This document shows, piece by piece, positions 8,778-63,780 of a DNA stretch of 64,000 nt. The translations under genes and the position numbers were made by a program. This stretch comes from Tribonema minus. Taxonomy: Eukaryota; Sar; Xanthophyceae; Tribonematales; Tribonemataceae. The stretch lies in NCBI GenBank assembly GCA_017506865.1, contig JAFCMP010000046.1, positions 620,001-684,000 of the forward strand. The letters are read 5' to 3'. The notes under the pieces were generated by a model. That model made no database searches. It was given only the letters and a program-made list of their open reading frames with translations, and was not told where the DNA came from. Positions within the stretch are counted from its first letter, which is position 1; the number at the start of each line of letters is the position of its first letter.

Positions 8778-8811
8778 GCCAAAGAGTCTGTTCAAAGCTC
8801 CAAGAGAGATG
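8778..8811. promoter_or_regulatory. Remnant of divergent RlmN/SNAPC3 promoter, left half
   Basis: Only 34 bp separate the RlmN ATG from the inverted-repeat end. On the other side, 50 bp (25094-25143) separate the element from the SNAPC3 ATG. Removing the element leaves two divergent start codons about 84 bp apart, so this was probably a compact bidirectional promoter or joint 5'-leader region. Transcription now either starts in the element's repeats or is altered; the sequence alone cannot say which. Confidence 0.6.
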
Positions 8812-9128
8812 AAAGTGGGTGACGTTTTTCGCCCTCGCTAAGGGCTGGCTTTACAGAGGCCAAAATCGCCACCAGGTTTCGCCTAGGACAGACATCCAAA
8901 CCCTAACCCTAACCGCCGAAACGGCCACTTCACGTGCCTTGATGCAGCTTTCTGGAACGTGATGGCATGGCTGGGTGTTCTGCAACAAGGTGAGAGCTGC
9001 ATACATACATCTGAGATATTGGACATGCGTGTAGGTCTGGCCATTTATTTTCTCAACCCTGAGGCATCAGAGGGCACAAACAGAGTGGCGAGATGACCAT
9101 CGCGCCCAGAGGCAGCAGCAGCAGCAGC
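8812..9128 (+). repeat. Left terminal inverted repeat
   Basis: The outer 34 bp are identical to the complement of 25060-25093. Inside lie a GCCCT/AGGGC stem (8831-8845), a CCTAGGACA block, two CCCTAA units (8899-8912), a GCCG-AAA-CGGC hairpin (about 8915-8925) and conserved blocks around TTCTGGAAC and GGCATGGCTGGGTGTTCTG. The repeat ends in the CAG-rich start of the F-box-like gene, so it carries that gene's 5' leader, ATG and first codons (MTIAPR). Confidence 0.92.
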
Positions 9129-9791
9129 AAGAGCAAGAGGCAGCACAGGGAAACATCACTCCCCTTGCTGCCGGAAGAAGTGGTCGGCGAGATCTTGGCT
9201 TTTTACGACTCTCATCAGCACTGGCTGAGGTTCAGGTTGGTGATGTGCGAACTGGATCTGAATGCATTCGAGCTGCGTGCTGGCCAGTTCAGCGACCACG
9301 ATGGCATGTTGTATCCATCACTAATAATGCAAATTGTCAGATTCGACGATCGCCGTGCTTGCCCCATTCAGCTGGCAACAGCAGTCGCCGCAAGAGCGGA
9401 CCGCGTGCGTGCTGGGTGCAAACATGGCGTCGCGTACACAATGCTGGGTCATCAAGGCGTCGTGGTCGAACTGCAGAGACTAGCACCGACGCCTTGTGAT
9501 GCCATCCCCTTTCCAGTCAACGATTATCTGCCACGACCGCTGCGGGGCCGGTCTTTGATGCAATTGGCGCAAGTCTGGAGAGGCACCTACAAGGCTGACT
9601 TGTACTGGGAAATGTACGACGAACACGACTATGGCGAGTTCACATGGCCTTCGCTGCGCACTCGGAGCGCCTTGCACAATGGGCCACTCCTCAGCCCGGA
9701 AACTGTCAACGAAGAGCTGATGCGGTTCATGGGAGCCGCCACAACTGGCATCATATGCAAGTGGGTTTTCTCGCCCAAACAGGCTACATGA
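9093..9791 (+). CDS. F-box-like protein encoded at the left end of the element
   Basis: The predicted 232-aa protein starts at the ATG at 9093, inside the inverted repeat. After MTIAPR and a Ser/Lys-rich stretch, residues about 24-50 (LPLLPEEVVGEILAFYD…FRLV) resemble an F-box helix pair, which in known proteins binds SKP1 in ubiquitin ligases. The rest (about 50-232) has no domain I recognise. Another open frame begins where this one ends (about 9780-9916, ALNAARVGYRGDIAQLWLAQ) and looks coding, so the true 3' end may use a splice or have been lost to a frameshift. The CAG-rich 5' end is shared with the gene at the opposite terminus. The F-box label is tentative: the motif is short and degenerate, and no substrate-binding repeats are evident. 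Confidence 0.5.
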   Translation: MTIAPRGSSSSSKSKRQHRETSLPLLPEEVVGEILAFYDSHQHWLRFRLVMCELDLNAFELRAGQFSDHDGMLYPSLIMQIVRFDDRRACPIQLATAVAARADRVRAGCKHGVAYTMLGHQGVVVELQRLAPTPCDAIPFPVNDYLPRPLRGRSLMQLAQVWRGTYKADLYWEMYDEHDYGEFTWPSLRTRSALHNGPLLSPETVNEELMRFMGAATTGIICKWVFSPKQAT

Positions 9792-10336
9792 CGGCACTGA
9801 ATGCGGCCAGAGTTGGCTACAGGGGCGACATTGCACAACTATGGCTGGCACAAAGGCCGCAGATATGGGTCGCAGCATGCTGTGAACCAGCTTTCATGAT
9901 GCCTGCCGTTTACTGATCGCAACCCCGTGAATTAAAATGTCGCCGCAACCACAAGTTGGCGCAGAACAACACAGGCATAAGCACAGGAAACAGAAATGAG
10001 AAGCGTGAAACACGAGCATGAAACACACACTTGTCATTGCCTCCCTGTAAAGCACCCTGTCATGAACGTCCTTGCTCTCTGTAGTCAGCAATGCCAGGAA
10101 ATTGTCAGCGCATCAAATGCCAGCATAGTCTAATGCGCATTGTAGATGCTGCAGAGCTCATGTGCAAAGCTGCCTTCTGTCTTTTCAGAAGTAGGCAGCA
10201 AGACTACCTCCAGCAGTAAACATCGTGTACACATTGGACTCCGTCGGCCCCCGTGAACAGTCTTGAAAGCTCCCCAAATTTGCACCGTGTGTACCAGCAA
10301 TGATGACACGTGCGCTGGACCACAGCTGCCCTCAAC
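9792..10336. other. Spacer inside the element
   Basis: This is the convergent spacer between the F-box-like gene and the 3' end of the minus-strand multi-exon gene. Its start may contain extra coding sequence of the F-box-like gene (9780-9916). I see nothing else in the remainder. Confidence 0.5.
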
Positions 10337-13300
10337 TCAAGCGGAGGACGGAGGCGGCCTCTGAACAGCTTTGAGTGTCACAGGCCTGTAGCCGGCAGGG
10401 TGAATGCTGGGCAGCACTGTCTGGTAGATCTGCTGACCCGTATTGTATCTATCCATGACCACCGCCAGCGCCTTGCCCTTGGTCAGGCCAGCCGTACCTG
10501 TCACCGAAGTGCCCTTCTCATCTATGGCCAAGTCCTGCGCCAGCAGCGACAGCAGACATACACGTACAATGAGCATGCAGCAGCTGCATTTGATAAGGCA
10601 TCAGGCAGTGGAGCAGGTCTCTCCTGAAGTCCAACAATTGCCGCATGTCGCAGGCGCAGGTGCTGCGGCAGACACCGATCCAGAAACGACAATTGCAGTA
10701 CCCCGGCATGCTCAAGTTGCACCGCATGTCAGGATCGAATTGCAGGACCCTCGCATCGCATGGCTGCCTCTACACTGCTGATGTGCGTACGCGTCAGATC
10801 ACTACAAAGACACAGAAAACAATGAATATGATGATCAATATACTGCAATTACCCTGCGTGATGCGGCTGGGCCACATATTGCACTCATGGAAGCGTTCTC
10901 TAGTTGGTGCCACATGCACAAAGCTTGTTCGAGGTGTTGTAGAACAAGTATGGGTCCCTCACTGACAAGCCAGATATCAGGCGTGTACAACACGGCTGCA
11001 CGCATGCTTGATCAAGTAATGACACAAGTTGTCACTGAAGTGTTTCCTTGGTGTCATTGTGGCAACAAGAGGTGTGAGAGGTTAAGTGTTCCGCACTCAC
11101 TTTCACAGCTTCAGGCTTCATCTTCCAGAGGGCCACCCCATCCAACTGCATCTGCCGCGCGAAGTCCTTCACGTTGTCATCAGCCTTGCATACTCTGCTC
11201 TCGCGACCTGCAGCAGTATGGCACAACAGCAACACAAAGCCATGAGCGGTTGAACATGGAGCAGCAGTTGCTGCAGTGTACTTTGCTACACCTTTGCCGT
11301 GCCACCGCCAGTCCTGCCCACGCTCTCATACAAGTGTATGCATCGGCGTCAATGGCAAACGCTTGCACCAAGTGCACCAAAGCTCGGGCACTATCTTGCA
11401 ATTACTGACAGCAAACTCATATGCAGCAGAAGGCATGTCAACTTCAAGTACCAAGAGGCATGTCAACTTCAGGTGCTTGTGCCAAATGTTTGCCAGTGTA
11501 GCCTCGCTTACATGCGCAGTCAGATCTGTAAACTGTTGCACCAGTTCAAGCCCGCTGCCATAGATCAGTTGCAAATTCCAGTGCTGATTGCGCAGCTGGC
11601 GTAGCGCGCAGTGAGGCAAGTGATTACGTGTGCATGGAGGCCTGTAGGTTTTTACTTGTGCACCGCATGTGATACCACTGTAATGCGAGCACGCAACTAA
11701 GTCAGCAAGCAGCATGCATTCGTGTGCCGCCGCTGCCGCCCCGCCGCCGTGCCGCCGCCAGCCGCCGCGGCCCCCAAACACAAATCATTTGTACGATGAG
11801 CGCCAGCGCGCCAATTGCAAGTAGACCACCAGTTTGCATGCAAGGCTCACCTCAGCTGAAAACGAATACACCCGCTCCTCATGCACTTTGCCATGTGTAG
11901 GTAATAAGCCAACAAGCTCAACCATGGCTATCATAAGCACTCACCTCGTTTCCGCCGCTGCCACTTCGCTGCCGCCATGGTTAACAACATCGATAGCGCC
12001 GAAAAGCCGACAGCATACATACCAGGAGCCCTGCAATGGTGTGATGCATTTATTGTTGCAAAATAATAATAATGAGCTGTGTCATTTTTATATCATGCGG
12101 CAGTTACATTTTGTGCAACGAAAAAACACTCAATGTGGTGTGAACTTCAACTGAGAGGCTGCATACTGTACATTGTACTGCGCTCAGTGGCATCATGCTG
12201 AAATTGTCATTGCCATGGATGCTCTGCGCCAACCCCACAGCATGAAACCGAACATGTGATGCCACATCCAGAGCGCTATCCTGAATCAATACCAGCAGGT
12301 TATGTGACTGATGCCAGTGAGCACCACTCACCGCGCTTGCTGCCCAGGTGCGTCTTGAAAGCGTCAGCGCCCAGCCCCGTCACAGCGGTCACAGCGCGAA
12401 GCACGTCATTGTAGGCCGCGGCGTTGGCGGGCTTGTTGGGCGCCGTGTACAGGGTGTAAGCGCCGTCCTCGTCGCCGTCTTCGCTGAGCGTGAGCCCCGT
12501 CAAAGCCTTGCTGCTGGCGGCGACGTCGCGGACGATGGCGCGCACGCGCTGCAGGCATGTGTCGGGCACGTTGACGCCTTGCACCCAATTCGCTTCCTTC
12601 CCTGCGCAGTAGCAGCAGCAGAAGCAGCAGCGAATGGCATGTCAACTTTAAGTACCTGTGGTAGTGTGAGCCAGAGCAGCATTGCTTGCATGTGCAAACC
12701 GTTGAACCAGTTCAAGCCCGCTGCCGTAGATCAGTTGAGGATGCAAGTGCTGATTGGGCAGCCGGCGTAGCGCGCAGTGAGGCAAGTAATTACGTGTGCA
12801 TGGAGGCCTGTAGGTTGTTACTTGTTCACCGCATGTGATACCACTGTAATGCCAGCACCCAACCAAGTCAGCAAGCAGCATGCATTCGAGTGCCGCCGCT
12901 GCCGCCCCGCCGCCGTGCCGCCGCCCGCCGCCGCGGCGCCCAAACACAAAACATTTGTATGATGAGCGCCAGCGCGCCAATTGCAAGTAGACCACCCACT
13001 GCAGCAGGCAAGGCTCACCTCAGTTGGAAAACGAATACACACGCTCATGCACTTTGCCATGTGTAGGTAATAAGCCAACAAGCTCAACCATGGCTATCAA
13101 AGCACTCACATCATCTCTGCCGCCAACACTTGCTGCCGCCATGGTTAACATTATCGATAGTGCCCAAAAGCCATCAGCCAACAATTGCAACTATACCACC
13201 AATTGCATGCAATGCTCACCTGAGATGCGAAACGAATACAAGCCTTGATCGCATGTCACTTTGCCATGTATGGTTAACTCAGCCAACAAGCTGAGCCATG

Positions 13301-16300
13301 GCTACGACTCACACATGCAGCAACAGGTATGTCAACTTCAAGCACTAATAGCCAGGGTGCGCCAATCACAACTTTTGGTGGCCTTTACACCGTTGACAAC
13401 AGATGCTTCAAGATTTGATAAGGTGGGTGCACACCTGCAGCGCTTGGGTCTTCCTTCACGATGTTGGTGTACTCGCCCGCCTCCCACGCTTCATGTGACT
13501 TCTTGCCTGCAGCACATCACAGCGAGTGCAGAGCGTTATTGGTGTCTTAAACGGCAGAAGGGTCAGGTCATGCAACTAAAGAGGAGCCAGGTTAGGGGTT
13601 GGCACGTTATATCTTCTAGTCTGGGCTGTTTCCCTTTGTCTTGCTGCCAAAATATGGCCTATTTCTTATTTGATATATCCTTTTCCCCTCTTGCTGAAAA
13701 CGCGCAAAGTGGCACTGCTGCTGCGTGGTCAGCAAAAGGCACGTCAACTTCAAGTGCTTGTGATGATGTTTGCAAGAGCAGCATTGCTTGCATGTGCACA
13801 CTGAACTGCAAACTGTTGCGCCAGTCAAGCCCGCTGCCGTCAATGAGTTGCGGATGCAAGTGCTGATTGCAAATCCGACATGGTGTGCAGCAAGGCAAGT
13901 GATCACATGTGCATGGAAGCCTGTAGGTGTGTAGCTTGGAGTGCGCCTAGTGCAGCGCTGAAATGCGAGCACGCAAGTCAGTCAGCAGCATGCATTCCTG
14001 TGCCGCCGCTGCCGCCCCGCCGCCGTGCCGCCGCCCGCCGCCGCGGCGCCCAAACACAAAACATTTGTATGATGAGCGCCAGCGCGCCAATTGCAAGTAG
14101 ACCACCCACTGCAGCAGGCAAGGCTCACCTTAGTTGGGAAACGAATACACACGCTCATGCACTTTGCCATGTGTAGGTAATAAGCCAACAAGCTCAACCA
14201 TGGCTATCAAAGCACTCACATCATCTCTGCCGCCAACACTTGCTGCCGCCATGGTTAACATTATCGATAGTGCCCAAAAGCCATCAGCCAACAATTGCAA
14301 CTATACCACCAATTGCATGCAATGCTCACCTGAGATGCGAAACGAATACAAGCCTTGATCGCATGTCACTTTGCCATGTATGGTTAACTCAGCCAGCAAG
14401 CTGAGCCATGGCTACGACTCACACATGCAGCAACAGGTATGTCAACTTCAAGCACTAATAGCCAGGGTGCGCCAATCACAACTTTTGGTGGCCTTTACAC
14501 CGTTGACAACAGATGCTTCAAGATTTGATAAGGTGGGTGCACACCTGCAGCGCTTGGGTCTTCCTTCACGATGTTGGTGTACTCGCCCGCCTCCCACGCT
14601 TCATGTGACTTCTTGCCTGCAGCACATCACAGCGAGTGCAGAGCGTTATTGGTGTCTTAAATGGCAGAAGGGTCAGGTCATGCAACTAAAGAGGAGAAGG
14701 GTCAGGTCATGCAACTAAAGAGGAGCCAGGTTAGGGGTTGGCACGTTATATCTTCTAGTCTGGGCTGTTTCCCTTTGTCTTGCTGCCAAAATATGGCCTA
14801 TTTCTTATTTGATATATCCTTTTCCCCTCTTGCTGAAAACGCGCAAAGTGGCACTGCTACTGCGTGGTCAGCAAAAGGCACGTCAACTTCAAGTGCTTGT
14901 GATGATGTTTGCAAGAGCAGCATTGCTTGCATGTGCACACTGAACTGCAAACTGTTGCGCCAGTCAAGCCCGCTGCCGTCAATGAGTTGCGGATGCAAGT
15001 GCTGATTGCAAATCCGACATGGTGTGCAGCAAGGCAAGTGATCACATGTGCATGGAAGCCTGTAGGTGTGTAGCTTGGAGTGCGCCTAGTGCAGCGCTGA
15101 AATGCGAGCACGCAAGTCAGTCAGCAGCATGCATTCCTGTGCCGCCGCTGCCGCCCCGCCGCCGTGCCGCCGCCCGCCGCCGCGGCGCCCAAACACAAAA
15201 CATTTGTATGATGAGCGCCAGCGCGCCAATTGCAAGTAGACCACCGATTGCATGCAAGGCTCACCTCGGTTGGAAAACGAATACACGCGCTCATGCACTT
15301 TGCCATGTCTAGGTAAATAAGCCAACAAGCTCAACCATGGCTATCATAAGCACTCACCTCGTTTCCGCCGCTGCCACTTCGCTGCCGCCATGGTTAACAA
15401 CATCGATAGCGCCGAAAAGCCGACAGCAAACATACCAGGAGCTCTGCGATCTGTTGATACGTTTTGATATTAGTAACAATACTAAGCGGTGTCATTTTTA
15501 TATCATGCGGCATTTATATTTTGTGCAACAACAAGAACCGTCACTGCAGCCGCCACCGCTGCAGACTGTGGCAGCTAGTGTTTTGTGCGTCATGCACCTT
15601 TGACAGCTGTAAAGCTCATTTGCTGGCACCTGGACAAGATTCAAACCTGAACTCAACATTTGCGCAACCATCGCTCTAGAAACCACAAGTGTCAGGGTAC
15701 GACAATCACCGCAGCAGCGCCAACACCAGCAACGCACCTGCCCGCCGCTTGCAGTCCGTGTACCACGCCTGCCACTTAGCAAGACCCTCCTCCTCACCGA
15801 AGGCGCGAATGAACTGAAGCCGGCGTGCACCTCGCATTACGCTCTCCGCGTACGCTCCGCTGCTGTACCATCCAGAGCGCTTCCCCTCCGCTTTCTCCGG
15901 CCCCACGAGCTCCAGTAACCCCTTCGCGTCCGGCCGAGCTTTCCCCCGCAGCGCTTGGAGCGCACTGACGCAGTGAACCAGGCCCGCCAGCAGCCACAGT
16001 CTGCTGGACCGGCTCAGCGCCTGCCACATCACGTGCGACATGTGTTCATGCGGCACCAGCAGCAGGAACTGCCTCCCGTCTGAGCCGTTCTCGCCTACGC
16101 CCAGCACCAGCAGCAGCCGGCTATTGTTGTGCTCAGCAAGGCAGACGGCGGTGTGGCCACGAGGGCAAAGCGCGTCCAGGACCGCCGCCTCGTTGCGGGT
16201 GCCGATGCAAACGAAGGCGCGCACGCCATGGGCGTACTGCTCTCGCAGAAAGTCCGCGTAAGGCTGTGCGAAGAGGGCGAAGTCAGCGTCCTTGGGGCAC

Positions 16301-17319
16301 ATGATGTAATCGCCAGGGACTGTGGTGGGCGTCATGTTGCTTAGGAGCGCGGCCTCGTGCAGCGGCACGCCTCCGCCCAGCAGCTGCTGCAGCACGATCA
16401 CCGCCGCATTGGTGGGATGCCGCAGAGTCCAGGCGTGGTTCGCTGCTGCAGGGTTCAATGTTGTAGTAGTCGGGAAGGTGCCGCTGACGCTGAGGCCGCT
16501 GCTGTAGCTGCCATTGTGAGCCTGTAGGCCCTCGTGCAAGCGGGCTCGGTTAGCTGCGTCACGCACGGTGGATAGCTGCATTGGTCGCGTTGACGCGAGT
16601 CGTGGCCGCTTCAATGCCTGCGGCGCGCACAGGGGTGGCGCCGTTGATGATGGCGTCGAGGGCGTCTCGGGCGTGCTGGTCGCATGAGATCTGGCTGATG
16701 ATCTGCGCTCGGCGCTGTTCTGCGGAGACGGCGCCACTGGCTTCGATGTGTCGCAGTGAAGCCTCTGCATCAGGCTCCCAGTTCTGTATCTGCCGCACTT
16801 CCGGTGGCAGGTGCTGGTCTGCCTGTTGGCACTGCAAAATGTACACGCAGCAGAGCAATGTGCAGTCAGTGTCATATGGCCGGGATGAGACATTATCGGA
16901 TGTATTAGTACATGACTAACATACATGCACATGCCCGAATGAAATCCACAGAGATGCTGCTGTCGCGAATGTACATGTCATCAGCTTTTTTGTTCACACA
17001 TCGATTATTCAAGTATATAGAGGCTTTGTAGCAGTGGACGGCGCCGCATCGTCCAGCAAGAAGAGGGCAGAGTTGGCAAAAGTGGCTTGCAGCAGCTAGC
17101 ATCAGCAATCAAGCCGTTCATGCATCAACTCACCAGCTCTCCCAGCTCCCCAGCATCTGCAGCCGCAGAACTCGACGCCGCCACTCTGGCCTTCTTCGCC
17201 CGCGGCGGACGGGGCGCTGGCGTGGTCGGGTCGGCGATAAGGGATTGCTGCAGCCTGGTCGAAAGCTTAAGGTGCCGCTTGCTGCTGCTGCTGTCGCGGG
17301 CTGCGGCGAAGGCAAGCAT
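10337..17319 (-). CDS. Multi-exon protein of unknown function inside the element
   Basis: I do not recognise the family. Seven exons are supported by consensus splice sites and phase agreement: 17134-17319, 15738-16831, 14545-14616, 13435-13506, 12332-12601, 11101-11207 and 10337-10534. The start is the ATG at 17319. Exon 1 is basic and Ser/Ala-rich (APRPPRAKKARVAASSS, a possible nuclear signal). Exon 2 is mostly globular, with CPKDADFALFAQPYADFLRE and HEHMSHVMWQAL. Exons 3 and 4 are nearly identical 72-nt copies encoding KKSHEAWEAGEYTNIVKEDP. The next exon starts with the related GKEANWVQGVNVPDT. In exon 2 the frame changes at about 16558 (…NAAIHRA / RDAANRARLHEGL…). The total is one nucleotide over a multiple of three; either a +1 frameshift mutation or a 61-nt intron (GC|GTGACG…CTACAG|C) would resolve it. 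It shares a divergent promoter region with the gene at 17541. Confidence 0.65.
11450..15460. repeat. About 1.1-kb tandem repeats within introns of the unknown element gene
   Basis: A GCC-rich block (gccgccgctgccgccccgcc) recurs at about 11729, 12895, 14005 and 15144, with spacings of about 1166, 1110 and 1139 bp. The middle units (about 12890-14000 and 14001-15140) are almost identical over their whole length, indicating recent duplication. The second has an extra 29-bp duplication near 14690. The outer copies are partial. The segments at about 11880-12030 and 15305-15440 also match closely. Each full unit contains one copy of the 72-nt minus-strand exon. Confidence 0.9.
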
Positions 17320-17540
17320 GGTTGCTTGCGGATGTGCTGCCGGTACTCTCTGCAAGAGTCTCCCACGCCGCTGGCGTGCTTACAGCAGCACCAGCGCAAT
17401 ATGACACGATGCTCATATTCTTCAACCATGATTGCCTCAGCGCAGCAGCGCAGCTCTGCGCCACAACACCTGTGAACTGCGCCGCAGACTTCAACTCAGA
17501 CTTCAACTCAAGTGTTGGCAAAACAAGGACAAGGACCCAC
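17320..17540. promoter_or_regulatory. Divergent promoter region inside the element
   Basis: The interval separates the ATG at 17319 (minus) from the ATG at 17541 (plus), leaving about 220 bp for both promoters and 5' leaders. I recognised no TATA box or binding motif. A short direct repeat (cttcaactcagacttcaact, about 17489-17508) precedes the plus-strand start. Confidence 0.45.
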
Positions 17541-18248
17541 ATGAGCTGGTGTGGGAAGCACTGCGCCCACTGCCGCCAAGGCGTCAGGGCAGGGGTTAAA
17601 AAAGTTCGGAGCCGAGAGGGCCAAGGCCGCGTTTACCACGAGGCCTGTGCTACCACATATGGACAGCAGAAGCAGTTCAAGGATGCGAGAAACCGGATCT
17701 GCGATTACGAGGAAGAGTGTCTAGTGCGCGCCACTTATGGCCTCGTGGCGGCAGACGGCAAGAAAGGGACGCGGACCAGGTGCTCACGCCATGTTGAGGA
17801 AGGCATGGAGGATCTGGACCAACACATCGCCAAGAGGTGCCGGTCCAGCTACGATGGCGCTAGTGACGGTAGCAGCACCAGCAGCAGCGGCACCGGTGGC
17901 GGCAGCACCAGCAACGGTGGCAGCAGCAGCGGCGGCAGTGCCAGCAGGAGGGACTGTAGCAGCCGCAGCCGGGAGACAGGCGTGGCTCTGGAGGATACTG
18001 TGGAAGCGGATGCCGCAGTCTTGGAGTGGCTGACAAGCATGTCGGGTGATGACGGCATGCTCAAACGCATGGCGGGTCTCTGCGACAGCTCGCTCCGCAA
18101 GACGGTGGTGGAAGCCTACACGATGATGCTGGTGAACAGAGAGAGGACCCGGGCTGCGGAGCAGGCGGCGGCGCAGGCGGCGGCGGAGTGGGAGGTCTTC
18201 CAGAACACATCTGAAGAGCTGGCCGAGGGGCCACATGCTCAGGTGTAG
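17541..18248 (+). CDS. Small Cys/His-rich protein, unknown function
   Basis: From the ATG at 17541 the frame encodes 235 aa. The N-terminal 60 residues hold regularly spaced metal-ligand candidates: CGKHCAHC, then a Gly/Arg-rich loop, then YHEAC, with further Cys in CDYEEEC and CSRH. This suggests a treble-clef or zinc-ribbon-like fold. A Ser/Gly low-complexity linker (about residues 110-150) follows, then a helical C-terminus rich in Ala/Glu (AAEQAAAQAAAEWE). The frame stays open upstream to 17322, but that part overlaps the divergent gene and looks non-coding. It is convergent with the recombinase gene, with 124 bp between the stops. It could be a DNA- or protein-binding accessory factor; no family is recognised. 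Confidence 0.55.
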   Translation: MSWCGKHCAHCRQGVRAGVKKVRSREGQGRVYHEACATTYGQQKQFKDARNRICDYEEECLVRATYGLVAADGKKGTRTRCSRHVEEGMEDLDQHIAKRCRSSYDGASDGSSTSSSGTGGGSTSNGGSSSGGSASRRDCSSRSRETGVALEDTVEADAAVLEWLTSMSGDDGMLKRMAGLCDSSLRKTVVEAYTMMLVNRERTRAAEQAAAQAAAEWEVFQNTSEELAEGPHAQV

Positions 18249-18372
18249 AGCACAAGGATGACGGCAGCGGCTCTTGTCAGGTACGAGATACAGGATGCTT
18301 GATGCAACTGCATGGGATGGTCTGCTTGGTTTTGAGCTATTGTCACACGCTTTTGCCGCTTCTGATCACAGA

Positions 18373-19823
18373 TCATGCGCAACAAATTCCTTGCTGGTGG
18401 CAAGAACTTGGGGGCGCTGCTGCTCGCTGATGCTGGGGTTGCTGGCGACGTCGCAAAGCAAGGTACGCGTCACTGCACTTGCTGAGAAACCCCTCTGTCC
18501 TCGACAGCCGCGAAGCGGGCATGCACTTCTCCACCCACACGCTCAGTTCTAATTTCATGGCGTGGCCATAAAGCGCGTAAGTCAGAGCTACATACACAGC
18601 TCTGATGTCGCCAAAGTTGTAGACGCTGCCTCCTAAAAGGGCCTTTGCAGCTCTATTGGCAGTCTTGCAGTGACTGTTGTTGACGATCTTGTTCGATAAA
18701 CCTCCTGTATATCCTGCCGCTCCTTGACCCTGGTGGTGCGCTCTCAAGCGTCGCAGCGCTGCCAGAAACGCTTGTGGTTGACATAGAAGAGGCACTCGGC
18801 AAGTGCCGGAATCCTTCAAGCTCCTGAATTCGATGCTCTGATGAGCAGAGGCGACACTGTCATTAGTAACTGCAGCGGCAGCTGCCCCCGTCACAGGCTG
18901 ACTGAACTGCGCTGTACCCACAAGCTCTGCCATGCTGCGGCCAGACATGAGCGCCAGTGCACAGGCTAGTTCGAATGGCTTTGCACGAGGATAGTTAAGA
19001 ACCGCATTCATGGTTGTCCACCATGCAGTGGGGTGGAAGTGGCAGCTGCTGCTGCTGTGACCAATGCTTGGCAACGGCGCTTGCTGCTGCTGCTGCTGCG
19101 CACCGCACCTGCTAGCTCTGCAGTTGTGCTCTTCGCCCACTCTGGGAATTGCTGCTATGCCAGATCGTGCACTACGTGTTGCAGCAGCTGCTGCAAACTC
19201 CTTCGATGCTTTGGCACTACCATCTCTTGCTGCGGCAGGAGGGCCACCACCGCTGACGGACGAGGTCGTCGGTGGCGGTGACATATGCGAGTGTGCAGGC
19301 GCTAAGAAAGATGCGTTGGCACTCGTAGGCTGCTCTATGAGTCTCATTGCCTCCACATATGGTGGCATCACAATTAGCTTGTGCAGGAATGCATCCGCAG
19401 CCCTACTCCCCGTGTATGATGGCGCAGGAGGCTGCAACATCCCCTTTGCCATGAGGTTGTACTGCTCTGCATATGTAAGCTGGTCAAACTCCGCAACCGT
19501 TGTGCGACTGACTGACGGTCTTGTGCTTCTGTGGTAGTGCATGCTGGACTTCTGGCATTGTTCACTCGCTCCAGCACGTCCGTGATACCAGCCTTGTATT
19601 CACTACTGCCCTTCATGACGATATCACCATATTGCTGCCACCACAGGTATCTGATCTCGGCGAGACGCTGCTTAGTGGAGCGGGGGTGGTGTTGGCGCAG
19701 CCATTTCATGATCATGTCGGGTTGCTGCCTGTGCTGCAGGTACGCAGTCAGTCGTTGCACGTCATGACTGATGCTTCTGTCACTCATGTCGACGGTGCGG
19801 ATCGTTGTTACGATAGGCATCAT
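18373..19823 (-). CDS. Tyrosine recombinase, telomere-resolvase (protelomerase)-like
   Basis: Tyrosine recombinases cut and rejoin DNA through a phosphotyrosine. Telomere resolvases use this chemistry to turn inverted-repeat junctions into hairpin ends. In the 389-codon ORF 18373-19542 the C-terminal half shows ALALMSGRSMAEL (Arg about 202), a beta-hairpin with IEFRSLKDSG (Lys about 243), VPLLCQPQAFLAALRRLR, then YNFGDIRAVYVALTYALYG (Arg about 314) and SDAYLALRRR (candidate nucleophile Tyr about 360). This order and the DxRxxY block recall the protelomerase catalytic core. The usual His before the Tyr is not clear. An upstream ORF (ATG at 19823, ending 19374) with WLRQHHPRSTKQRLAEIRYLWW probably supplies the N-terminal domain. 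It is in another frame and overlaps the main ORF by about 170 nt, so a short intron or a -1 frame change is needed. The Ala/Ser/Gln-rich linker (about 80-165) is low complexity. Confidence 0.6.
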
Positions 19824-20080
19824 GTAATAAACACGCAACTGGCTGTTTCGCCATCTGTTGTCTCACATGACAGAGCAGCACAGTAATGGGGATTTTGCAA
19901 AATTATGCAATTGCACATGCAGTGACGCGCCGCATTTGTGACAGACGCATTCATTACCAGAAGGCGGAGCAGAAGGTTCAAAGGGTAGGCCACATTATGG
20001 AAACGTACAATTGTGGCATGCAAACACAGGTCATTGGGCAACTTTACATGAAGCACCACACATATGCCCTACACTTCACT
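19824..20080. other. Spacer between recombinase and replication-protein genes
   Basis: These 257 bp between two minus-strand genes hold no recognised ORF. They must contain the 3' end of the replication gene and the recombinase promoter. Confidence 0.4.
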
Positions 20081-23000
20081 TCAATGGACAGCAGCAGCGC
20101 TGGCCTCCTTGCCTTTCACCCCTGTCTGCTGCTGCTCCTGTGGCCGCTGTGACGTCACAGCCGTCCGTGGCGCCCAGCTACCCCTCTCCCTGTTGCAGCG
20201 CAGGCAAATGACCTCTACGTTTGTGATCTCGTGCCCCAGAGCATTGCACATGCGGTTCAGTGTGGGCTGATGCTCACTTGATACCGAACACACAAACTGC
20301 TGATGGCAACAGGCACAACATGCCCCATCACGTGTCGCTCCTTGAAGCAACACAGCAGCTAGCTCCTCCGCGGTGCTGTAGCCCTCGTTCCCTACCGTCT
20401 TGTCCCACCATACATGAGCTTGAGCTTTGCGTAGCGCCCACATTCCAAGTGCACCATTGCTCATCTCAAATCGAGAAGGATAGTGCCGGTCGCTGAGCGC
20501 ATGCACATTGCTTGGCCCGCACCCCCTGCTGACTGCGGTGTACAACCACTGCTTGTTGACCCGTGGGTGCCCCACCTCATGCACATACAGGGCTCCCTCC
20601 ACTGTGCGCCCTTGTACTGAGTGCACCGTACTGCTGCCGGGGGGGTCAAACAGCAGCTCCGCCAAGTACAGCGGCACCTCCACGCCTGGCAAACTCTCGC
20701 CCCCATCGAAGTGACTGCTGACCGTGACAGTTTCTGTGCCTGCCTGAGTCACCACATACAGATGATTTTTATGCACAATCCCTCCCCCTTCGCCGCTGAA
20801 CTTGTGGTATTTGCCTGCAACAACCAGTGCGCCCACAACCAGCATCTCATCTGCGCTGCTGTGCACGTGCAACAACTCCCTGTTGCTGACCTCACTACAG
20901 GGGGCTGGGCGCTGCCGCAGCTCTTGAAAGGCCCAATGCCTGGCGCATTCCCGAGTGTACGTGACATGGAAGCGGTGGTGGGAGCGCTGGGGCGCGTCAT
21001 CCTCCTGAGCTGCCGCCGCTGACTGGCGCGTACCGAACCGCTCGAGCACGCGCTTGCGGGCTTCTGCGCCGCTGGCTGCTGCGAGCACGTACAACAGGTG
21101 ATCATCCATTTCTACCTGTTCATGGGCAGTGCCATCGCGTTTGCGTGCGAAGATGTGAAGGCTGACAGGGAATAAGCGCTGCATAAGGGCCACCCTGCTC
21201 TCTATGTTTTCCACGGTCACAGAGTAGCCAGTGCTGGTGCTCTCCTGCACTGGCTCCAGCTGGTGTACGTCATAGGTGGCAATGACATGTGCACCAACAT
21301 GGGCGGCAGCGGCGCGCACCATGCTGAGCGTACGTACGGACACGTACGCAGCTTCCTCCAGTGTGACTGCATCGATCCTCGGCATTGTGAGCGCTCCATT
21401 GGCCTTCTGCAGCTGCATTCCCTCGCCCACGAAGAATCCCATCTGCCTGTCGTATGTGCGCACTACCCATCCCTTGGGCAGCTCTTGCGTCGTGTAGGCG
21501 GTGCGCAGGCTGTTGGTCGGGGTCAGTATGAGCACGCTTTTGAATAGCTGCTTTGCTGCATGCAGCACGCAGTAGCTTTTTCCGCACCCAGCATGCATGG
21601 CAGTCACAGCCATGCTCAGTGGCGCAGTGCTGTTGCTGAGCATATCTTTCAAGGCGCCGGCAAGGGCGTCGGGGCTCTCTGCGGCACAAATTTCAGCCCA
21701 TCGCTCCTGCTTCGCTGTCATGCTCATCTCTCTCCATGCCGCTTCTGCTGCGTCCAGGGACGTGAAGGTTGAGCGGAGACCTCTCCACAGCGGGCGCACC
21801 TGAACTGCACTCTGCTCTGGCACTGGAATCGAGCGCAACTCTACAGGCAGAGCTTGCAGTGAGCACTTCAGCCTCATGGGACCAAAGGTGCGCTCTCCGC
21901 TCTCTCGATGTGCCGCCTCAAACTTGCACGTGCCCGGCACCCGTACTTGAGCGTCTGCGTCGCAGCCAAACACGTGTGGAAAGCGGGACCGCGCTTCCTG
22001 CTCCTGGAAGTACTGCGGCCGCTTGGCGAAGACTGCATCACACTTGTATGCAAAGCTGTGGCAGCCGCATTCGCTCAATGCATTGCGCATCTCCAACACG
22101 TGCAGGCGCACATGCTCTAAGATGAACAGCGCTAGCGCGTAGAAGCCGTCCTTGTACCAGAAGCGGCGCCAGTCCATGCAGATGTGTGCGTCGCTCTTGC
22201 AGAGTTGTCCCCGCACTGCCCCCCCTTCTCTAAACTCCCACATCAGAGCCTCCATCTCAGCGGGGACTGGCACAACTCGTGTTTCAGAAATGCTCTGCGC
22301 CTCGGCACGACCACTGACAATTACGGCGCTGATGCTGTCCGCGTATCGCTGCTGCACTTGGCCGCTTGCGGTGACAATGACGCTCTTCTTGAACTTGCGC
22401 TGCAGGTCTTCAGTCCACAAGTCGTCTTCGGCATCTGATCCATTGCAGGACGAGCTGGGGTCGCTGTCCAGGAAGGCCTGCAGCACTGCTGGCACGTGGC
22501 AGCGCTTGACTACGCGCGAGGGCCGGATGAAGTGGGTGATTCTGTGGCGCACCGCCTGAGCACCTACAACTTGCAGATATTTTAGGTAGTTGCATCCGAG
22601 CACGGGCGTGATGTCGGCGTTGAGAAATGCATCCATACAGTGACCTGGCTCCTCGCCTTTGTCTTTTTTGCTTGCCATTTCAACAATGTACATGTTCTCT
22701 GGTTTAATGCTGTGCCCATTGTACACTTGCACATCGTCAAAGTACCCAAAGACGGGGATCTCGTGCATTGCCAACATGGCTGCCAAATGCGCAGAGTTGA
22801 TGTCGACTTGTATGTCGTGTGCCGTATACTGCACCCCCTGTGAGTCTTCCGCGCCGACTATGGGCCCACGCCAGTGAGACTCGAGCACTCGTAGCAGGGA
22901 CGGCGAATACTGGCTGATCACCTTGAAGTGCTGCATCTGCTTGCGCAGCTTTGACAGCGCATTCTCGAATGCACACGACAATTGATACGCTTGTGCGCCG

Positions 23001-23368
23001 GTGATGGATTCAGGGTGCAGGCCGCATAACGAGCCAGTCCACCAGCTTTTGATCACAATGCGCAGCTGAGGGAATTTTAACAGCGTCCATGTTGAAAATG
23101 TGCTCAGCCTCGCCTCCCCTGAGAATCCGCGGTGGTGTAGTTCGATGGCCAGGTACCTCAAACCATCTTCCCCTGCCCAAAACCAGACTGTGTCCTCAAC
23201 AGGCAGCCGTTGCTCTTCGCACTCTTGCACGAACTGCTGTCGACTGCGGAGCTGATGCAATGCACTGCCTATGGTGTCCAGCACGTGGCTCCCGGGGTCG
23301 GTTGCTGTCAACTGATCTGTACATTGAGGTGAAGGAGTGGAGGACTGTGTATCCTCCGACGCTGCCAT
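20081..23368 (-). CDS. Replication protein: PolB-like palm, SF1 helicase and HNH-like zinc region
   Basis: This is an uninterrupted 1095-aa frame. Residues about 185-210 (DIQVDINSAHLAAML) fit family-B polymerase motif A (DxxSxYP-like). Residues about 410-447 (LALFILEHVRLHVLEMRN…YKCDAVF) fit the helix before motif C plus a divergent motif C, in which only the second Asp is kept. Residues about 590-950 are a clear SF1 helicase: AMHAGCGKSY (motif I), LILTPTNS (Ia), DAVTLEEAAY (II), ATYDVHQLEPV (III), STVHSVQGRTVEGA (V) and LYTAVSRG (VI). The C-terminus (about 1017-1062) has CCACC, SSEHQPTLNRM, GHEITN and CLRCNRERG, resembling HNH/endonuclease-VII-type domains. The likely role is replication of the element. 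The helicase call is firm; the polymerase part is divergent and could be inactive. The ORF is preceded in the same frame, across one TGA, by 23390-24568. Confidence 0.82.
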   Translation of the reverse strand: MAASEDTQSSTPSPQCTDQLTATDPGSHVLDTIGSALHQLRSRQQFVQECEEQRLPVEDTVWFWAGEDGLRYLAIELHHRGFSGEARLSTFSTWTLLKFPQLRIVIKSWWTGSLCGLHPESITGAQAYQLSCAFENALSKLRKQMQHFKVISQYSPSLLRVLESHWRGPIVGAEDSQGVQYTAHDIQVDINSAHLAAMLAMHEIPVFGYFDDVQVYNGHSIKPENMYIVEMASKKDKGEEPGHCMDAFLNADITPVLGCNYLKYLQVVGAQAVRHRITHFIRPSRVVKRCHVPAVLQAFLDSDPSSSCNGSDAEDDLWTEDLQRKFKKSVIVTASGQVQQRYADSISAVIVSGRAEAQSISETRVVPVPAEMEALMWEFREGGAVRGQLCKSDAHICMDWRRFWYKDGFYALALFILEHVRLHVLEMRNALSECGCHSFAYKCDAVFAKRPQYFQEQEARSRFPHVFGCDADAQVRVPGTCKFEAAHRESGERTFGPMRLKCSLQALPVELRSIPVPEQSAVQVRPLWRGLRSTFTSLDAAEAAWREMSMTAKQERWAEICAAESPDALAGALKDMLSNSTAPLSMAVTAMHAGCGKSYCVLHAAKQLFKSVLILTPTNSLRTAYTTQELPKGWVVRTYDRQMGFFVGEGMQLQKANGALTMPRIDAVTLEEAAYVSVRTLSMVRAAAAHVGAHVIATYDVHQLEPVQESTSTGYSVTVENIESRVALMQRLFPVSLHIFARKRDGTAHEQVEMDDHLLYVLAAASGAEARKRVLERFGTRQSAAAAQEDDAPQRSHHRFHVTYTRECARHWAFQELRQRPAPCSEVSNRELLHVHSSADEMLVVGALVVAGKYHKFSGEGGGIVHKNHLYVVTQAGTETVTVSSHFDGGESLPGVEVPLYLAELLFDPPGSSTVHSVQGRTVEGALYVHEVGHPRVNKQWLYTAVSRGCGPSNVHALSDRHYPSRFEMSNGALGMWALRKAQAHVWWDKTVGNEGYSTAEELAAVLLQGATRDGACCACCHQQFVCSVSSEHQPTLNRMCNALGHEITNVEVICLRCNRERGSWAPRTAVTSQRPQEQQQTGVKGKEASAAAVH

Positions 23369-23389
23369 GTTTCTGAAGCACTTCTGGCT

Positions 23390-24756
23390 TCATACTCCAT
23401 GATCTAAGGCAAAGTCAGTGGCGGCACTCAACGACTCTTCTTCGCTATGACCAAACCGATCTGTCCACGGGCCGTCTATCAGTAGCCGGTATGCGTGTCC
23501 TTCGCGCACCCCAATGTGCAGTGCTCTGGGGCGCAGGAATGACTTGTTAGCGATGTCGGCGGCTGCTCCAAACACGCACGCGCCGTTCCCGCGATGCTCC
23601 CACAAGACTACCTGTGCTTGGGTCAACGACAGCCAGTTCGTCATCTGCTGCACAGAGAGTGCTGGAGGCGCCTCTGCTCTGCGGAGCCATCGCTGAAATG
23701 TCTGGCGAGATACATCAGTTCCCAGAAGCAGTGAGTACAGGTTCCGAAAGTAGTTTTCACCGTCGAGTGCGTTGCGCGCTGATACAGCCCTCGCAGAGCC
23801 CGCCGGCCGCCCAGGTGGCGCCGATGGGATAAACTCGTGTGTTTCAGGGTCTACATCACGGAAGCCGAACCTGTGGCAGTGTGAGCGCCTCAAGAACAAC
23901 TGTAGCTGCCTCGTTCTCCAAGCATCTGCAATGAGGATAGCCAGGCACGATTCTGGCAACAAGGCTTTCCATTTCTTGGCAAACGCAGTGACAGGCTCGT
24001 ACTGCGGGCGCAGCTGACCGAATGAGGCTACGCTGAGCTGTCTGTACACTCCATCATCAGCAGAATTCGCAGCGGCCGCATCTGCAGGCTCGAACCAGGG
24101 CCTCAGGTCTCCACTACCCCCTGCACGAAGTGGCAGCTGCCATAAGCGCACCACTTTGGTGCCATCGGCTTGCTGCAGGGAAGGTGGAACTGCCAGGTGT
24201 GCTGGTACCCATGACACCATGGTGCGCCAAGTGGAGTCGGCTGCTGATATCACATACTTCCCCCTGCCACCTCCTTCCACGTCCACGAATGCAAAGCGCC
24301 ACGCTGCTTCATCGTCAGGATGCACACGGCCCGACTCCAGCAGGCTACGTGCCCACGACAGGAAGTCCGGAAGATAAGGGTCGCCTCCAGGGGGAGCCGA
24401 GTTGAACCAGCACGTGCCTGCTTTCTTGACGGCCCAGCTGCCAAGACCCTCGACCCAGCGCACTCTGAAGCCCGTCTCAAAATGGGACTGGGCACGGTAG
24501 CACCGGCCATTATGGGCGGTATACCTCCACCCATTCCTGCGCTGTGTGTCTGGAACAGCCTCGTCCATCTGGATGACCCTGACGAGGCTGTAGCTGTCCC
24601 CTTCGTTGCTGTTGCTGCTGCTTACTCTGCTTGTGCTGCTTCCGCTCCAACCAGCGGCAGCACTGCTGGCCCGGAGGCTATGGACGTTGTGATGCTGCCT
24701 GCCCAGTCCGCGTGCACTCTGCCAGTGGTGCTGCTCCGCCAGGCCTGATAACCCTC

Positions 24757-24805
<49 letters not shown>

Positions 24806-24822
24806 CTGGGTGCGATGGTCAT
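23390..24822 (-). CDS. Upstream ORF of the replication protein, in frame with it across one TGA
   Basis: The core ORF (ATG at 24568, TGA at 23392-23390) encodes 392 aa. It ends 21 nt before the ATG of the helicase ORF and in the same frame, so translation across the TGA would give one protein of about 1490 aa. The C-terminal part (QVVLWEHRGNGACVFGAA, LHIGVREGHAYRLLIDG) resembles the region preceding the polymerase domain in some large viral or plasmid PolB proteins. The frame is also open upstream of 24568 into the CTG repeat. Alternatively, the ATG at 24822 in the inverted repeat (MTIAPR plus about 15 Ser) could be joined to it by a 38-nt intron (AGA|GTAAGC…CTACAG|CC), which keeps the frame through LVRVIQMDE. 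An intron that small would be unusual here. No enzymatic domain is recognised. Confidence 0.6.
24758..24804. repeat. CTG/CAG trinucleotide repeat
   Basis: About 15 uninterrupted CTG units on the plus strand encode poly-Ser in the frame of the ATG at 24822, or poly-Gln in the frame of the replication ORF. The left inverted repeat has a short counterpart (about 9112-9129), so the tract lies at the inner end of both repeats and has expanded on the right. Confidence 0.95.
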
Positions 24823-25093
24823 CTCGCCACTCTCTCTGTGTTGTGTGCTACTGCAGGGCTGAGAAAATAATTGGCCAGACTCACACGCACGTCCGATCTC
24901 CCAGAGTGATTACAGCAGCCTTCAAATTGTTCCAGAACACCCAGCCATGCCACCATGTTCCAGAAAAGCTGAATCAAACGTGAAGTGGCCGTTTCGGCGG
25001 TTAGGGTTAGGGTTTGTCCTAGGCAAAATTGGTGGCAGATTTGGCCTCTGCAAAGCTAGGCCCTTAGCGAGGGCGAAAAACGTCACCCACTTT
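24786..25093 (-). repeat. Right terminal inverted repeat
   Basis: This is the inverted copy of 8812-9128. It includes the perfect outer 34 bp, the CCTAGGACA block, two TTAGGG units (about 25001-25014), the GCCGTTTCGGC palindrome and the MTIAPR start codons at 24822. The copies have diverged by substitutions and small indels in the inner 200 bp, so the two ends are not freshly duplicated. Confidence 0.92.
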
Positions 25094-41569: not shown

Positions 41570-41884
41570 CTATCTGGCCCTTTTGTACGCGTCAAGCAAT
41601 TGCCGCGCCTGCCAGACTTGTGTTCAAAGATGAGCCTCACTATGCAGGCATGCCAACACCTCGCCCACTCTGGATGCAAAGGGCAGCAGGAGCCCTTGCC
41701 AGCAGACGCCTCAACTCCCAACCTTTTGCCGGGAAATTAACCGACGCCCATTGGTACTCAATTGGTACTTTTGAAACCTCTTGGTGACCAAGACCACCCC
41801 ACGACAACCTTTTGCAGCTTCAGTGATGGCCTGCGTGACCTGAGATCTGGCGGCACACAATGCTGACTGCTGAGGTAGAGCGTT
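41570..41884 (+). mobile_element. Fragment of repeat family Y, interrupted by LINE insertion
   Basis: This stretch is an inverted match to about 63495-63780. Shared blocks include gcctcaactcc, ttggtactcaattggtactt, cagtgatggcctgcgt, gagatctggcggcaca and ggtagagcgttgt. Conceptual translation of both copies gives a shared RRLNS…WYSIGTF pattern. The match stops after gagcgttgt, exactly where LINE sequence begins, so a LINE copy landed in Y here. Confidence 0.7.
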
Positions 41885-42632
41885 GTACTTTTATTGATTC
41901 TCGCTCAGGGCGCGAAAAAGCCCAGATGATTGGCATCTAGCTGTAAAGAATCTACATGTCGTATGACAGTCTGAAAGTGTCGCAACGACAACCACTCAAA
42001 CGCCGCCGCCGCCAAATGGCATCTCGGGGTCCTCCCCTACGTCCTCCTCCATGTGCCCCCCCGCCCTGGATTCTGCCATGTGTGTCATGACACGGCCAGA
42101 GTACGCCATGTGGAGCGCTGCCGACAGTGCCGAGCGTAAGCGCGCCAGGGCGATGCCCTTGAGAGCTTTAGGGCGCGCTCCTCCGGGCACTGACATCCTG
42201 CTGGCATACTCCGTCGCCACAGCCTCCAGCAGCTTCCGCCCCTGCTCCCCGATGCTGCCAAAGGACCCGAGTGCCAAAGTGGCAAGTTTGTAGCAATTCT
42301 GATCATAATGACCAGAATAGTGGGTAGTCTTGGCGGCCTCTTGGTCGCGGCAGCATCGCTCGGGGTCTGCTGCAGTCTTCGCCGCCCGCGACGCCACCTG
42401 TGCCTCGAAGCAGGTAACGTCCACCATGAGCGGTAGGTGGCGTGTCGGGTCGTCGTAGCTGGTCACCGGGAAGGCGTCGGCAGGCAGCACGATGTCCATC
42501 CTGCGACTCCCCGGCGGCCCGGCGGATCCCAGAAATGGCGTGTAGTCCTCGTCCACCAGTCCCGTTTTGAGGTATTGCCGCAGGATGCGCTGCGTGGCCC
42601 TCTTGACGCTATTGTGGACGATGGTGTCGTGC
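41885..42632 (-). mobile_element. 5'-truncated LINE copy 1
   Basis: This copy is nearly identical to the 3' end of the long copy at 43941-47868. It covers the 3' UTR and the C-terminal endonuclease region (open frame 41996-42556, with RRMDIVLPADAFPV and PLMVDVTCFEAQ). It ends abruptly near the codons for the HNSVKRATQ region. The high identity suggests a recent insertion. Confidence 0.9.
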
Positions 42633-63479: not shown

Positions 63480-63780
63480 GGGCGGGCAGCAGCACAACGC
63501 TCTACCGCCGCAATCGGCACTCTGTGCCGCCAGATCTCAGGGTTACGCAGGCCATCACTGGGGCAGCAAATGTTGTCTCGGGGTGTGCCAAGAAGAACGA
63601 AAGTACCAATTGAGTACCAAAAGGGCGTCGCCCTTCCTGGCAAACGGTTGGAGTTGAGGCGTCTGCGCTGTCGACGGCTCTCTGCTGTTCAGCATGCCCT
63701 CATAATGATAGAGAGGCAACGCCAGCCAAAACAGCTTCTGTTGCAATCATGTGTCTGGACACCAGATGCCGAGCAGTGAG
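63480..63780 (-). mobile_element. Family Y repeat, second copy
   Basis: This is the inverted counterpart of 41570-41884, uninterrupted here past the point where the other copy is broken. The minus strand encodes a short WYSIGTF-containing stretch. Family membership beyond 'LINE-like' is not established. Confidence 0.6.

Follow-up and report, generated by a model that had tools for sequence, protein, structure and literature searches.

The Tlr1-like helicases (pPolB-S1H) are replication proteins in which a polymerase palm without exonuclease, its motif C changed at the first Asp, is followed by a superfamily 1 (SF1) helicase and a C-terminal GIY-YIG or HNH domain, a plan described for polinton-like viruses and transpovirons (PMC11071308). 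In transpovirons, the terminal inverted repeats (TIRs) measure 380-520 nt, a tandem repeat occupies a central position 3' of the helicase, and a zinc-finger protein is encoded (PMC7031253). Insertions in protist genomes have been reported in a size range of 15-30 kb (PMC10120064), and phaeoviruses exhibit a conserved telomere resolvase together with a telRL-like site (PMC13236599). In the literature, no paper was found that pairs a telomere resolvase or protelomerase with a polinton. The element analyzed here combines features of these systems. It lies in a window of 64,000 nucleotides of the xanthophyte Tribonema minus (contig JAFCMP010000046.1, hereafter C46, positions 620001-684000; the assembly counts 158.18 Mb in 554 contigs). 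It spans positions 8812-25093 of the window (16,282 bp), is bounded by TIRs of ~320 bp, and encodes a palm-like/SF1 helicase/HNH protein and a protein of telomere resolvase fold. It is probably a nuclear copy, in the course of degeneration, of a linear element without capsid that belongs to the polinton-like virus and transpoviron lineage.

The coordinates, inverted repeats and perfect 34-bp tips proposed in a first-pass annotation agree exactly with the alignment of the two arms. The tips (8812-8845 and 25060-25093) are 100% complementary over 34 nt. Further in, the arms pair over a block of 39 nt (8897-8935 and 24978-25016, 100% complementary) and another of 187 nt (8949-9135 and 24780-24966, 81%), and display 82% identity across 326 alignment columns. 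A genome search with the left arm returned 24 match places on 13 contigs, including the window's own two and several that are pieces of one end; the best outside the window reach 89% (C549) and 84% (C124). Since its termini match at so many places, the element belongs to a mobile family, in agreement with the mobility proposed for it. A second element of the same plan stands at a different site, C124:361096-376976, with both arms and the two end genes p485 and p242, the former interrupted by an insert. A further locus, C124:332685-342208, carries p485 and the helicase at 85%.

A compact relative of 9.2 kb is found at C224:642488-651695, bounded by 66-nt TIRs of 98.5% identity. It holds the fused replication gene, in two frames, followed by an intact resolvase-like gene of 481 amino acids, and a tandem duplication of ~0.7 kb near its far end. 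Its TIR begins with an (AC)n tract and shares with that of the window the stretch TTTTTC-R-CCC...CTAAGGGCC (R = A/G; 22 nt at 86%), while the helicases of the two TIR families are 52-54% identical. Among the 18 match places of the C224 TIR, three (C528, C112, and C156) are located just outside p485-like genes reading inward. Short TIR-bounded copies of 0.57-2.2 kb occur in both families, at C549:560431-560998 for that of the window and at C535 and C490 for that of C224.

The replication gene reads inward from the TIR, its N-terminal part, p485, being parted from the helicase frame by a single in-frame stop (window 23390-23392). Three other loci, C124, C224, and C445, are open across that junction, in frames of 1258, 1281, and 1467 amino acids that take in roughly the final 130, 330, and 360 residues of p485, respectively, which places the N-terminal extension in the same protein as the helicase. 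None of these copies is shown whole, because of frame shifts and stops at each: the remainder of p485 at C124 and the helicase tail at C224 are in another frame, and C445 has two stops at the upstream edge of p485. The helicase relatives amount to six match places: the window, C124, C224 (two halves of one gene), C445, and a fragment on C19. The helicase matches the Dda-like phrog_325 (E 8e-8), identifying it as an SF1 helicase, and the C-terminus matches HNH profiles (phrog_338, E 0.0039). The SF1 motifs that had been read in the window are conserved in the loci that reach them: GCGKSY/GAGKSY, LEEAAY, and TYDVHQL in the four aligned rows, and VHSVQGRT in three. Palm-like motifs, conserved in the same four-locus alignment, occur in the expected order, with a motif A DIN[SA]AH (DINSAH in the window) and a C-like motif AY[KI]CDAVF (AYKCDAVF in the window). 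No exonuclease profile matched in the protein. The helicase is under purifying selection, with ratios of nonsynonymous to synonymous substitution (dN/dS) of 0.21 between the window and C124 and of 0.14 between C224 and C445.

The order and detail of these motifs lead us to file the protein with the Tlr1-like helicases of polinton-like viruses, Tlr elements and transpovirons, with which it shares the N-terminal extension, the palm-like motifs, a replaced first Asp in motif C, the SF1 helicase and the HNH domain. The gene set had been held to fall outside known classes; this cannot be maintained, since the combination of palm, SF1 helicase and C-terminal HNH is already described (PMC11071308). 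The single-sequence structure model of p485 is too poor for fold searching. The DGENYFRNLY/GHAYRLL region may be a vOTU site devoid of its Cys and His, and no vOTU profile matched in the replication protein.

The second shared gene encodes, by firm sequence assignment, a member of the TelN/ResT telomere resolvase family. The match to PF16684 scores 32.7 bits against a cut-off of 27 (E 7.1e-8), phrog_5272 is matched at E 2.4e-12 (TelN matches the same family at 3e-293), and hhalign gives a probability of 98 (E 2e-13). These profile searches, chosen beforehand to challenge the claim that the recombinase resembles telomere resolvases, thus placed it inside that family. Sequences like that of the window (hereafter class B) occupy 81 match places, several of which are pieces of one gene. 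Seven of them (window, C224, C51, C33, C201, C26, and C353) were aligned with seven references (TelN, TelK, PY54, VP882, VP585, phiHAP-1, and ResT), leaving out L008 (near-identical), L007 (partial) and the copy at C445, for which just the N-terminal part was found; the seven are not all independent, as L006/L009 and L004/L005 are close pairs.

Both catalytic Arg, that of GRR/GRS/GRT and that of the D-x-R box, are kept in all seven class B rows. The catalytic Tyr is replaced by Phe in every one of them, and the His of the LGH motif by A, Q, Y, Y, N, N, and T, the Tyr at this position belonging to C51 and C33; a Pro stands at the Gly of LGH, not at the His. The Lys of AKKR is also replaced in 7/7 rows, in a variable hairpin that makes this column less sure. 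These three residues are all kept in the seven bacterial and phage rows, as well as in the six rows of a second, intact class of the genome (class A, below). To note, the Lys in the YKDSR box of TelN is uninformative here, as ResT, VP585, and class A also lack it. No other invariant C-terminal Tyr exists among the five class B rows examined, and the PHROG match, which extends beyond the Tyr position in class A, ends before the His in class B. The window protein therefore seems, from the alignment, to have lost the residues needed to cut DNA, and with Tyr and His replaced the known chemistry of hairpin telomere formation should not be available to it. The class B frames are nevertheless open over 420-644 amino acids at many places, others being short or bearing stops, and their dN/dS is 0.42-0.43 in three comparisons; these genes hence look kept rather than merely decaying. 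The helicase gene is followed by the resolvase-like gene at three of the four near-complete helicase loci, namely the window, C224, and C445 (N-terminal part only).

The inverted arms of another repeat, about 267 nt long and together spanning ~13.7 kb (C239:13348-27068, L067/L068), enclose a class B gene; immediately beyond these arms is an rve integrase frame (E 2.8e-9). Within the window, a dispersed repeat occurs twice, at 43941-44194 and 41884-42131, with 98-99% identity to the sequence flanking a class B locus on C518.

A genome search with PF16684 found 34 places; 12 of the matches are strong (E 1.3e-17 to 2.3e-27), and the other 22, that of the window included, are weak. Six of the strong places were read and constitute class A (C524, C346, C179, C90, C21, and C223), with all five catalytic residues (Arg, Lys, Arg, His, Tyr) kept in 6/6. 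The major capsid protein of nucleocytoplasmic large DNA viruses (NCLDV; PF04451) has 10 match places in the genome. The resolvases of C179, C90, C21, and C223 (L069-L072) are 56.7, 57.0, 43.4, and 57.6 kb, respectively, from one of these; of the remaining eight strong places, two are at 130 and 436 kb from a capsid match, and the contigs of the other six lack such a match, as do those of all 22 weak places. The binomial chance that 4/12 strong places fall within 60 kb of the 10 capsid places is about 1.6e-6 with places treated as independent; the true figure is weaker, because the C179 and C90 places seem to be duplicates of a single locus. This linkage suggests that the intact resolvases near capsid matches belong to endogenous giant viruses, and it fits the pattern described for phaeoviruses (PMC13236599).

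The termini were inspected for traces of a hairpin and of the mode of integration. The left tip holds a 5-bp stem (GCCCT/AGGGC), and its DNA folds no better than shuffled sequences (z -0.51), with no hairpin-specific signal seen. An (AG)n tract precedes the AAAGTGGG tip at 11/18 family ends examined, two of which (C316 and C124:361096) may represent a single locus, their flanks being identical; the family terminus thus appears to be located slightly further out. The tract is inverted between the two ends, which rules out (AG)n as a preferred target. The left TIR also contains the telomere-like AAACCCTAACCCTAACC, from position 8898, and CCCTAA is present at 15/18 family ends. Little weight was given to these repeats as a special signal, since CCCTAA arrays are abundant in the genome: 5426 overlapping matches to five units (3123 forward, 2303 reverse), many far from contig ends. 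One such array starts contig C2 (listed matches 8 to 450) and suggests a telomere of TTAGGG type. Concerning integration, no exact target-site duplication of 2-10 nt was seen at any of the five elements having both ends. No empty site was found either: the pairwise-joined flanks of four elements gave no match across a junction. What the search recovered was the flanks of the elements themselves, one flank in identical form on C316, and six weak matches of partial length (71-81%).

Features of the element and of its left border (positions in the window).
Feature	Position	Strand	Remarks
(AG)n-ATG tract	8802..8811	+	just outside the left tip
Left TIR	8812..9135	+	34-nt perfect tip 8812-8845; start codon of the left gene inside
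p242	9090..9791	+	starts in the TIR (MTIAPRG...); no Pfam match
Central tandem array	11418..15534	.	four ~1.1-kb units, spacing 1166, 1110, 1139
p423	15706..16977	-	weak matches only: phrog_13511 E 0.0058, DUF5901 E 0.22
Cys-rich open frame, EsV-1-7-like motif	17271..18248	+	PF19114 E 3e-4, 21 bits against a cut-off of 25
Resolvase-fold protein, ResT/TelK catalytic domain	18373..19599	-	both Arg kept; Lys, His, Tyr replaced
N-terminal part of the resolvase-like gene	19374..19862	-	different frame (intron or frame break); BLASTP to the C224 relative E 2e-11
Palm-like region, SF1 helicase and C-terminal HNH	20081..23389	-	phrog_325, phrog_338, four-locus alignment
p485, N-terminal part of the replication protein	23390..24847	-	abuts the helicase frame, same reading frame
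Right TIR	24780..25093	-	start-like MTIAPRSSS at the position matching that of the left arm; without the outer (AG)n tract

The remaining frames are listed in the table. The end gene p242 is matched at 13 genomic places, 10 of which adjoin a TIR match, and has a dN/dS of 0.31-0.49 (four comparisons). The central array has no clear gene apart from a frame of 113 amino acids (12300-12641, minus strand) that matches the C124:361096 element at 51%. The single-sequence structure model of p423 is too poor for searching (predicted local distance difference test score of 38), and its N-terminal 106 codons display a dN/dS of 0.49 against C446. Among the eight element frames, no capsid or packaging protein and no transposase domain was matched in Pfam. 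A PHROGs "portal protein" match covering 19 residues at the N-terminal end of p485 (E 0.05) was taken as chance. Outside the element, the window contains an inverted pair ~21.6 kb apart (41811-41889 and 63491-63570, 86-87% complementary) and a 77-bp tandem repeat of 2.5 copies (52748-52948).

Like transpovirons, the element possesses TIRs measuring a few hundred nt, a helicase, tandem repeats at its centre and a frame rich in Cys, and a capsid gene was not seen in it. It differs by its integration in the nuclear genome, its size of 16 kb instead of ~7 kb, and its resolvase-fold protein. Moreover, transpovirons are episomes carried in giant-virus particles, whereas the element is known here from integrated sequence alone. 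With polinton-like viruses it shares the type of replication protein, the TIRs and the insertion in a protist genome, but no major or minor capsid protein, ATPase or active integrase was found in the frames scanned. Relative to TelN, TelK, and ResT, its recombinase is of the same family with both catalytic Arg but has the Tyr, the His and probably the Lys replaced, and no hairpin site was found. Cryptons and other tyrosine-recombinase transposons resemble it by a gene of tyrosine-recombinase fold and the lack of target-site duplication; the element differs from Cryptons by its TIRs, its replication helicase and its apparently inactive recombinase.

The assignment to a capsid-less linear element of the polinton-like virus and transpoviron lineage, which we consider probable, suggests the following life cycle. 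The element would replicate as linear DNA outside the chromosomes, with the palm or N-terminal part of the fused protein starting synthesis at its termini, probably by protein priming, and the SF1 helicase unwinding the DNA. Genomes replicated by protein priming frequently terminate in short reiterated sequences, and tips made of dinucleotides would be suited to slide-back priming, though this is suggestive only. The resolvase-fold protein may bind the termini or other DNA without cutting. Integration would leave no target-site duplication, which points to end capture, to an enzyme supplied in trans, for which the intact resolvases of the endogenous giant viruses are candidates, or to a route not seen here.

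Several observations weigh against this assignment. Of the PolB-like/SF1 fusion put forward by the first-pass annotation, the fusion and the SF1 helicase stand, but the PolB part holds at the level of motifs, as what may be a degenerate palm, weak by profile. Indeed, hhalign against the phi29, PRD1, and Cp-1 polymerases gives a probability of 4% (E 0.01), although it does align DINSAH to DVNSLYP of motif A; Pfam and NCBIfam show no polymerase in the protein, and no motif B is recognisable in the palm-like region, unlike in the Tlr1-like helicases. Sequence searches of solved structures were empty for both the helicase and the resolvase-like protein, and NCBIfam returned no noteworthy match. 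The link between these two genes may be loose, as the C124 contig, which carries the fourth helicase locus, has no resolvase-like match, and most resolvase-like matches have no such helicase alongside. The Cys-rich frame is a weak point of the transpoviron parallel: it scores below the Pfam cut-off and gives no sign of purifying selection (against C446, dN/dS is 2.3 over 90 codons, with few changes), so that we are unsure whether it is a gene under selection. The flanks of C124:361096 have a 6-nt word in common, above 95% of shuffles, located 10 and 16 nt away from the element ends. Divergent capsid genes may have been overlooked, since p423 and p242 are without assigned identity and the double jelly-roll capsid profile PF21738 had no genome-wide match with its control also silent. 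Finally, scans of IMG/VR and of phage records returned no relatives, with patterns taken from a few short stretches, which are insensitive.

The hairpin-ended replicon originally proposed would be an integrating linear molecule whose closed ends are made by its own telomere resolvase acting on joined TIR tips. The family membership of the gene would agree with it, as would tips that are identical inverted repeats, as half-sites would be, and the phaeoviruses, also algal, provide a parallel in their telomere resolvases and telRL-like site (PMC13236599). However, the replacement of His and Tyr in all seven class B rows, without another invariant C-terminal Tyr in the five rows examined for one, tips that mostly begin with dinucleotide tracts, and the unremarkable fold of the left tip make it very unlikely that such a replicon is run by the element's own protein. 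An active hairpin telomere resolvase was rejected as the main model because of the replaced His and Tyr. Hairpins could instead be made in trans, the element being a satellite of endogenous giant viruses whose class A resolvases process its tips. The enzymes would be at hand, with 12 strong PF16684 places, the complete Arg, Lys, Arg, His, Tyr set in the six read, and four of them 43-58 kb from an NCLDV capsid match; yet no class A recognition site is known here to set against the tips and the left tip gave no hairpin-specific signal, which leaves this version unlikely as well.

An endogenous polinton-like virus proper, with capsid genes lost from this copy or unrecognised, is a rather unlikely alternative to a capsid-less element: the type of replication protein, a size within the range of protist insertions (PMC10120064) and the two frames of unassigned identity would all accord with it, but the 9.2-kb C224 relative leaves little room beyond the two shared genes, and both the Pfam scan of the eight frames and PF21738, whose control was silent, returned no capsid. 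We regard as highly improbable a plain DNA transposon that captured genes playing no part in its movement. The short TIR-bounded copies at C549, C535, and C490 speak for it, whereas the absence of a transposase domain among the eight frames in Pfam, the lack of exact target-site duplication at 5/5 elements and the conservation of the helicase gene in two separate TIR families argue otherwise.

By analogy, the preferred reading of a capsid-less linear element suggests, as a hypothesis, that the element depends on giant viruses, of which the genome holds traces. A more specific and fairly improbable proposal is that pPolB-S1H and the catalytically dead resolvase paralogue form the two-gene replication module of a nuclear transpoviron-like satellite living beside giant viruses with an intact resolvase. 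The dead paralogue might then bind the ends of the giant virus or of the element, and either give the satellite access to the telomere machinery of the virus or block that machinery as a genome-encoded decoy against the virus.

If the capsid-less assignment is true, transpoviron-like pPolB-S1H elements without capsid would exist as a multi-copy mobile family inside a nuclear genome. The telomere resolvase family of this one genome also splits into a group associated with giant viruses, whose catalytic residues are intact, and a larger-looking group that has lost them yet persists as open frames at many places. The role of the resolvase fold without its nucleophile thereby becomes directly testable, and a candidate is provided for a new layer in the contest between giant virus, satellite and host.

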